From assembly GCA_014859545.1 (NCBI GenBank), contig JACUTZ010000004.1:1-43656 (forward strand): 43,656 nucleotides of DNA, written 5' to 3'. The position numbers and the translations under genes are program-made. Positions 38,936 through 40,952 of the stretch are shown here, in pieces. Numbering within the stretch: the first letter of the stretch is position 1; each line of letters opens with the position of its first letter. The DNA comes from Gammaproteobacteria bacterium (GTDB taxonomy: Bacteria > Pseudomonadota > Gammaproteobacteria > Thiohalomonadales > Thiohalomonadaceae). Under the pieces are notes generated by a model, which worked only from the letters and a program-made list of their open reading frames with translations, searched no databases and had not been told where the DNA came from.

Positions 38936-40081
38936 TTAAACCGGTTTGATGCTATTCCACTGCTTGCAGCCGGGGCACTGCCAAAGCATGCTGCGCCCCT
39001 GGTAGCCACACTGACGGCACTGAAACCGCGCATTGCTCTGTAACAAACGGCTGGTCACATCCCGCAGTTGCTGCCATTGCTGATCGCTGGACTGCCCAGA
39101 GACCACCTCAAGCAAACAGGAAAGCCCCTGCAAGGAGGGCTGATTTGCCAGGGATTGCCTGACCATGCCCTCGGCCCGTTGGGTATCCCCCCGCTTAAGC
39201 CAGAGCCGCACCAGGGGCTCAACCAGGGTAGGACTATGATGACGCTGCACCAAGGACTCAAGATAGGCACGATATTCGCTTCCCTGACCGAGTTGCTGGT
39301 AGGCCTGCTCGAGTGGTTCCAGAATCAACGGTAGATAATCCGGGTCCTGCTGTTCGACGCGTTTACAGCTGCGAATCGCCTGGCCGTACAAACCCTGCCG
39401 ACTGGCCAGCTGCGCTTCAAGCAGGCTGGCACGTACGCAGTTTTTATCCCAATCGACGGCACGGCGTAAGCACTTTCCGGCCTGGCCCAGGTCTGATGTG
39501 GACAGCATCTGCTCGGCCAGTTCGCAGTAGTATTGCGCAACCACCGCTGCCATATTGGCAGCCTTGACGCCACGAATACGCTGCGCGACATCGATGGCCT
39601 TCTCCCACTCCTTTTCCTGCTGAAAGATATCCAGCAACTGCTTATGACTATCGCTACCATGTACCGGATCATTCAACAGATCACGAAACAGATTTTCAGC
39701 GCGATCCAGCAGACCGGCACTCATATAGTCCATACCCAGGGCGTACAGCGCCTGGCGCCGGTGCGGAGTGGAAAGCGTTGGTCTGGCGATCAGATTTTGA
39801 TGGATGCGAATGGCGCGTTCCACCTCGCCACGACGCAAAAACAAGGATGCCAGGGCAAACTGGATCTCCACCGATTCACTGTCCAGCTCGGAAATGCCGA
39901 TAAACACATCCAGGGCCGCATCGGGGCGCTCATCCAGCAGATAGTTCAAACCCTGAAAATAACGGGAGTTCATCTGTGGGGGGCAATCCTTGCCATGAGT
40001 TCGCTTCGCCGAACCACGCCCCAACAACCAACCGGAGAAGGCTGCCACGGGAAGCAGCAGAAACAGCAGCTCGATCCCCAT
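38936..40081 (-). CDS. lapB: Lipopolysaccharide assembly protein LapB (YciM)
   Basis: N-terminal TM, TPRs, C-terminal rubredoxin-like CRQCGYQ...WQCPGCKQWNSI. Confidence 0.94.
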   Translation of the reverse strand: MGIELLFLLLPVAAFSGWLLGRGSAKRTHGKDCPPQMNSRYFQGLNYLLDERPDAALDVFIGISELDSESVEIQFALASLFLRRGEVERAIRIHQNLIARPTLSTPHRRQALYALGMDYMSAGLLDRAENLFRDLLNDPVHGSDSHKQLLDIFQQEKEWEKAIDVAQRIRGVKAANMAAVVAQYYCELAEQMLSTSDLGQAGKCLRRAVDWDKNCVRASLLEAQLASRQGLYGQAIRSCKRVEQQDPDYLPLILEPLEQAYQQLGQGSEYRAYLESLVQRHHSPTLVEPLVRLWLKRGDTQRAEGMVRQSLANQPSLQGLSCLLEVVSGQSSDQQWQQLRDVTSRLLQSNARFQCRQCGYQGRSMLWQCPGCKQWNSIKPV

Positions 40082-40374
40082 TAATACGGGCCTTTGATCG
40101 GGATATCACGCAAATTACGGACTTCCTGCCGCGCGAGGTTCAACTGCTTGCGCAAACGACGTCGCTCCAGGGAGGCAGCTAAAAACATCCCAAGACAAAC
40201 CAGCAGGGAAAACAGACTACCCAGGGCAAAGGCCATCAGCAACAGGAGAGCCAAGGGCAACTCGAGCGTAGCGAGGTAGTAATTGAATTGCACTGTCGAC
40301 GCATTCAAAAAGGCCAGCACCGCAGCCAGCAGCGTAAACAGAAGCAGGATGATAATCAGGAGTGCACGTTTCAT
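40081..40374 (-). CDS. lapA: Lipopolysaccharide assembly protein LapA-like
   Basis: Two TM helices, NASTVQFNYYLATLELPLALLLLMAFALGSLF. Confidence 0.92.
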   Translation of the reverse strand: MKRALLIIILLLFTLLAAVLAFLNASTVQFNYYLATLELPLALLLLMAFALGSLFSLLVCLGMFLAASLERRRLRKQLNLARQEVRNLRDIPIKGPY

Positions 40375-40406
40375 GTCCGTATCACTTTAACAGTCATCGC
40401 GGGCTT

Positions 40407-40567
40407 AGGAGGCAGGTCAAAATACTATTTACATTCGGTCGCAGCTGGGCCATCACTGCTGTGTTAGGTTTCTTGGCAAGGGCGCAGCCATTACCTACGA
40501 AACCTGCCTTGCATTGATGGCCCAGCCACGCCCTCGGTGTTGACAATAGTATTTTGACCTGCCTCCT
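40407..40567. repeat. About 161-bp near-palindromic (MITE/REP-like) element
   Basis: aggaggcaggtcaaaatactatt (40407-40429) is the perfect reverse complement of 40545-40567; inner arms gctgggccatca/tgatggcccagc and aggtttc/gaaacct. Confidence 0.9.
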
Positions 40568-40634
40568 TAGAGATAGTGCGGATCAGGTGAATGTACGACC
40601 GGGACTGGTCGAGATATGACAATCAGGCCTGTAT

Positions 40635-40952
40635 TCAGGCAGTTTCCTGCTTGATATCGTGCCCGTTGATCAGACCCTCATTTACCCTGTCACGCAATTC
40701 CTTGCCGGGCTTGAAGTGTGGCACATATTTGGAACCTAGCGCTACCGCTTCGCCGGTCTTGGGGTTACGCCCCATACGCGGTGGTCGATAGTGCAAAGAA
40801 AAACTGCCGAAACCGCGGATCTCGATACGCTCGCCACTGGCCAGTGAATTCGCCATGGATTCCAGCATCGTCTTGACTGCCAGTTCCACATCCTTATAGG
40901 CCAATTGCTGCTGTTTGCGGGAAAGGATATCGATCAGTTCGGACTTGGTCAT
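40635..40952 (-). CDS. ihfB: Integration host factor beta subunit
   Basis: [45 protein letters not shown]. Confidence 0.96.

Follow-up and report, generated by a model that had tools for sequence, protein, structure and literature searches.

A near-palindromic repeat between ihfB and lapA, a probable non-autonomous mobile element with a core hairpin widespread in Gammaproteobacteria

Introduction

Several families of small bacterial repeats resemble the element described here. Bacterial MITEs, such as ERIC/RU-1, YPAL/RU-2, Correia and Nezha, are likewise small, non-coding and dispersed between genes, with terminal inverted repeats (TIRs) and short TA-rich target repeats. REP, REPIN and BIME sequences with RAYT transposases, and TIR repeats with TIRYT transposases, share with it the hairpins, the frequent inverted pairs, the location at gene ends and the many copies. 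Integron attC sites combine free stem sequence with a fixed structure and fixed unpaired bases, and take up insertions at one point. Insertion sequences (ISs) of the IS5/IS630 type have TNA or TA target repeats and CTAG-like targets. Among the Pseudomonas fluorescens repeats of Silby et al. 2009, R6 is 177 bp long with 34-bp inverted repeats and R178 is 101 bp long with internal inverted repeats (PMC2718517). By size and described structure alone, R6 is close to the one-hairpin form of the present family and R178 to its core, and both may be earlier sightings of that family.

In the window, the whole stretch of 43,656 nucleotides that was analysed, a palindrome separates ihfB from lapA. It is probably a mobile, non-autonomous DNA element and belongs to a superfamily in which TIRs surround one or two core hairpins of ∼100 nt. 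It has the hallmarks of a MITE: 22-bp TIRs in complete copies, a TWA duplication at 11 of 14, a multicopy state and no coding capacity. Unlike in the known bacterial MITEs, its core is conserved across many families while the terminal repeats differ. REP/RAYT and TIR/TIRYT units of 20–40 bp contrast with its 100-nt core and its direct target repeats, and attC sites with its own terminal repeats, its dispersed single copies and the missing R-box pair of the window copy. About one third of the sampled gammaproteobacterial genomes carry such a repeat without an assigned mover, among them named replicons of Azotobacter and Pseudoalteromonas; should the core be what is recognised, this would point to an undiscovered DNA-handling enzyme. 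On the practical side, contigs end in copies, copies sit on stop codons and strong hairpins are placed into operons such as ihfB–lapAB.

The palindrome and its neighbourhood

The features of the locus are as follows.

40081–40374, minus strand: lapA, neighbour, named by its position before lapB; start codon 30 bp from the element
40405–40407, no strand: left target-site repeat TTA (identical TWA flanks at 11 of 14 two-ended copies)
40408–40566, plus strand: probable mobile hairpin element, 159 bp (same-ended copies in its own genome and in relatives)
40408–40429, plus strand: left TIR, family form GGRGGCWGGTCRAAATARTATT (arm pairing, end scans)
40437–40536, plus strand: conserved core hairpin (model R2, 96.8 bits; class-wide relatives)
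40437–40459, plus strand: core outer stem, 5′ arm, pairing with 40511–40533
40463–40465, plus strand: near-invariant GTT of the core (GTTGC in most relatives), where small modules are inserted in other genomes
40466–40472, plus strand: inner stem, 5′ arm, pairing with 40499–40505 (compensatory changes AGG/CCT to GCG/CGC)
40472–40495, plus strand: conserved apical motifs CTTG..AAGG....GCCATT.CC (alignment conservation)
40499–40505, plus strand: inner stem, 3′ arm (same compensatory changes)
40506–40512, plus strand: conserved GCCTTGC (alignment conservation)
40511–40533, plus strand: core outer stem, 3′ arm, pairing with 40437–40459
40545–40566, minus strand: right TIR (arm pairing, end scans)
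40567–40569, no strand: right target-site repeat TTA (identical TWA flanks at 11 of 14 copies)
40635–40952, minus strand: ihfB, neighbour (NCBIfam IHF beta above cut-off, E 4e-45); stop codon 65 bp from the element

The preliminary description had reported a near-palindrome of 161 bp at 40407–40567, and arm pairing and fold statistics bear out the palindrome. Its outer inverted repeat is perfect over the 23 bp claimed (40407–40429 with 40545–40567) and extends to 26 nt with one mismatch (40404–40429 with 40545–40570). The outermost A/T pair, however, is part of the flanking TTA repeats, and the element proper is therefore 40408–40566, a near-perfect palindrome of 159 bp with TTA at both flanks. 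The inner arms placed at 40444–40455 and 40515–40526 do pair but had been drawn too short, since they span 40437–40459 and 40511–40533 with 83% pairing. The second inner arms (40466–40472 with 40499–40505) pair completely, as described; their 5′ arm reads AGG in the subgroup of the window element and GCG in most others. Folding of the element is far more stable than expected, both as RNA (z = −8.1) and as DNA (z = −9.4), and none of 200 shuffles reached its stability in either case. No fitting open reading frame (ORF) had been noted, in agreement with the finding that only ORFs of 21–59 codons with TTG or GTG starts cross the element.

Both neighbouring genes are on the minus strand, and the element lies after the ihfB stop and before the lapA start. 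lapA has no NCBIfam match of its own, and lapB, partial in the window piece, is identified by its best NCBIfam match, which is below cut-off. The position between co-directional genes and the very stable fold would suit an mRNA hairpin, as had been proposed, or a terminator, acting in cis on the ihfB–lapAB transcript. Such a role is extremely improbable: the same gap lacks the element in two relatives (G001 and G008), copies are dispersed, a terminator-like site is absent inside the element, and no Rfam match reached the gathering threshold, eight relatives included (the best hit below threshold, M23, scored 29.9 of 41.2 bits and has a different fold).

Copies, empty sites and target repeats

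The host genome (2.44 Mb, 253 contigs) contains at least nine copies or fragments of the element, which is also present in G001, of the same genus, and in G006 and G008, of the same family. Further full or nearly full host copies are found on contigs C101, C212, C23, C162 and C235 with 88–94% identity, with fragments elsewhere, and two contigs of the assembly end within a copy. The orthologous ihfB–lapA gap of G001 and G008 is ∼110–160 bp long and without the element; these empty sites are not alignable to the single-base level. A single copy conserved as part of an untranslated region, named beforehand as the outcome that would speak against a mobile repeat, is thus not what the genomes contain.

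Most copies are flanked by direct repeats. Identical TWA (TTA or TAA) stands on both sides of 11 of the 14 copies with both ends, a count that takes in the copy on contig C55 of G008, where an extra base shifts the match. The chance of so many identical flanks is 0.03 if the middle base can be T or A only and 4e-5 if it can be any base. In many copies the target is longer, CTNAG. The proposal of a MITE-type mobile repeat is supported by the multicopy state, the target repeats and the absence from the orthologous gap. Copies are dispersed, their ends are fixed, TWA direct repeats flank most of them and the ihfB–lapA gap of two relatives lacks one; from these copies, flanks and empty sites, mobility can be read with some assurance. 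The element would move as DNA, helped in trans by a protein encoded elsewhere, and a staggered cut at CTNAG-like targets would generate the 3-bp TWA repeat. This protein may read the ends, the core or both; more tentatively, it would recognise the folded core, exposed as single-stranded DNA or as a cruciform, with terminal arms that need only pair and end correctly. The ihfB–lapA copy would then be a tolerated intergenic insertion.

In 5 of the 14 copies (six with one base of leeway) the target falls exactly on the stop codon of an adjacent ORF at least 130 codons long, compared with 16 stop codons among 190 TWA sites outside ORFs at the same loci. The simple reading is selection: an element that lands on a stop codon restores the stop, and copies therefore persist at gene ends.

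Other forms occur in the host family. A 231-bp form with 70-odd additional bases is found in G001. In G006, two terminal repeats stand back to back and make up a perfect palindrome of 35 bp flanked by TTA at either end (L106:790-824; G006:C37:111289-111323), and an element in G000 is likewise reduced to two back-to-back terminal repeats (L031:1476-1515, contig C23). Two-hairpin elements with other terminal repeats are also present in the family (L147, L148 and L151 in G008; L141 on C28 of G000), and several types therefore coexist per genome.

Distribution of the core hairpin

A covariance model of the window type matched the inner ∼98 nt at many more places than the ends. These cores largely correspond to inverted pairs, 7–8 bp apart and with a CCTTCGG spacer, within elements of ∼270 bp. 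The terminal repeats of these paired-core elements vary by lineage and are quite different (AGTGTACTG..., AGTGGGCC..., AGTACTCC..., TACTAAGAC..., GGGGGCGTTCTC...). A one-hairpin element of 164 bp with ends of the paired-core type also exists.

The core-only model R2, whose E-values are rough and whose copy counts per genome, taken from a capped number of scored candidates, are lower bounds, with single weak matches possibly false, has matches in 118 of 369 Gammaproteobacteria genomes (E 1e-4), about a third, and in 64 of 398 Pseudomonadota genomes (E 1e-5). Among the latter, 24 are outside Gammaproteobacteria, 21 of them in one family and three marginal others. Carriers named by blast are Azotobacter, Pseudoalteromonas, Halomonas, Photobacterium and a Pseudomonas aeruginosa plasmid, and R2 confirmed the core in the first two. 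A blast against plasmids and phages with the window copy and one core as queries gave no match. The element is unannotated in two database records examined, and no description of the core emerged from literature searches, whether by sequence string or by topic. One Escherichia coli ERIC copy gave no match to the core model, and the printed YPAL/RU-2 sequence, compared by eye, is without the core motifs (PMC2759123).

Pairing and conserved motifs of the core

Among 65 cores, most of them absent from model building, 91.6% of the pair cells are standard versus 58.8% after shuffling and 35–43% after sliding; the alignment is fitted to the model, which favours pairing, but the effect is large. Double changes number 622 versus 179, and both partners vary at 26 of 30 pairs, mostly by swapping as whole Watson–Crick pairs. 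Stem columns hold little sequence information, whereas GTTGC, CTTG..AAGG, CCATT and GCGCCTTGC are near-fixed. Across the superfamily, stem sequence turns over under maintained pairing, with very little change in the apical motifs. Stems can also be kept paired by template switching from arm to arm in replication. Mismatches outside the fixed columns comprise 25 G-T and 52 A-C in ∼1,700 cells. The scarcity of G-T was considered as proof of DNA over RNA and fails, since A-C on one strand is G-T on the other and the mismatch type cannot tell single-stranded DNA from RNA.

It is tempting, if speculative, to propose that the core hairpin defines a structure-recognised class of mobile DNA, distinct both from TIR-defined MITEs and from RAYT-dependent REPs. 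A host or mobile recombinase could bind the folded core, with its fixed apical motifs and T^TGC point, and move whatever element pairs around that core, which would leave terminal repeats free to evolve.

Variable stems with nearly fixed unpaired bases, together with small modules at the core T^TGC in several genomes, recall the attC sites of integrons, site-specific recombination sites that are recognised as folded strands. However, the RYYYAAC/GTTRRRY box pair is absent at the fold base of the window copy and the element brings ends and target repeats of its own, which makes an attC-like site very unlikely.

Candidate transposases

In its classical form, a MITE is a deletion derivative, here of an IS5- or IS630-like IS, with a DDE transposase that reads the terminal repeats only and a core that is a passenger. 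This explanation, which opposes core recognition and not the mobile-element claim, falls only a little short of an even chance. TNA and TA target repeats and ends starting with GG fit IS5/IS630-type enzymes, direct repeats are present at 11 of 14 copies, and the 35-bp TIR–TIR palindrome with TTA flanks indicates that ends can exist without a core. On the other hand, despite the shared target repeats, pattern scans at 2–3 mismatches uncovered no IS with such ends in the element's own genome, 20 family genomes and 369 class genomes. The same holds for the complete genome G137, where TIR matches nearly all pair at element length and therefore no IS with those ends is seen. A parent IS may have been lost or may lie outside the sampled genomes. 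Solo ends, upon inspection, showed no transposase alongside. Genes of the IS5 group are few in carriers: DDE_Tnp_1 (PF01609) is matched once in G000, once in G006 and not at all in G001 and G008, despite the many copies in G008, and no element ends occur at the DDE_Tnp_1 genes of carriers. An autonomous version was also sought between close copies in G137, G011 and G044, where the first residues of the ORFs revealed no recognisable transposase. Finally, a passenger is not expected to keep its apical motifs class-wide while the ends change.

The REP/BIME-like label given earlier holds for the inverted pairs of the wider family but not for the enzyme. A Y1 tyrosine transposase (RAYT/TIRYT) that moved REP/REPIN-like or TIR repeats through their single-stranded hairpins would account for the hairpins and for the inverted pairs with their spacer, and Y1 genes are present in 25 of 27 carriers versus 13 of 23 chosen non-carriers (p 0.006, uncorrected for relatedness). 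Yet direct TWA repeats are not expected from the Y1 mechanism, two carriers (G364 and G437) have no Y1 gene at threshold, and 0 of 30 Y1 loci have a core within 1.5 kb or paired element ends. REPs are short GTAG-tagged palindromes with a transposase gene flanked by the repeat, whereas the unit here measures ∼160–270 bp; similarly, the same ends flanking a Y1 gene, as in TIRYT systems, were not seen among the 30 loci. A Y1 mover is thus unlikely. Several Y1 genes are instead flanked by inverted repeats containing GGGGTCAG (L258, L259, L265, L268, L270 and L271), which match the published TIRtron motif GGGGWSAS (PMC3733652).

Signs of activity and inserted modules

The complete genome G137 holds ∼22 near-identical copies of 267 bp, with TA on both sides in the 14 examined. 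Some of them (L189, L199, L201 and L203) directly adjoin another repeat, whose final GTTGCCGGGTTAA also forms the end of a core-bearing element in G248 (L179), and elements thus seem to insert side by side. Strain A316 of Pseudoalteromonas shioyasakiensis carries a related element at a place where SDCH90 has none; the left junction differs by ∼11 bp and the duplication is therefore unreadable there. The Pseudoalteromonas element (L278:1477-1768) sits between the stop codon of a gene and the terminator-like hairpin of that gene.

Two kinds of insert occupy the T^TGC point. A 22-bp CGCCTAAAGCGCCTACTGTTGG, with no match in viral contigs, is inserted without flanking duplication in three genomes of different families (L168, L169 and L183, positions ∼1635–1700), two of the insertions being in the 5′ arm (GT^TGC) and the third in the 3′ arm (CT^TGC). 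A small-hairpin module of ∼70 bp (GACTCCATCCCTGGAGTC...CGCTCCCGGCGG) is found at the same point in L053, L043/L046 (G001), L144 and L120 (G011), in cores that differ in their terminal repeats, and a related module stands alone near the host copy on C101 (L002).
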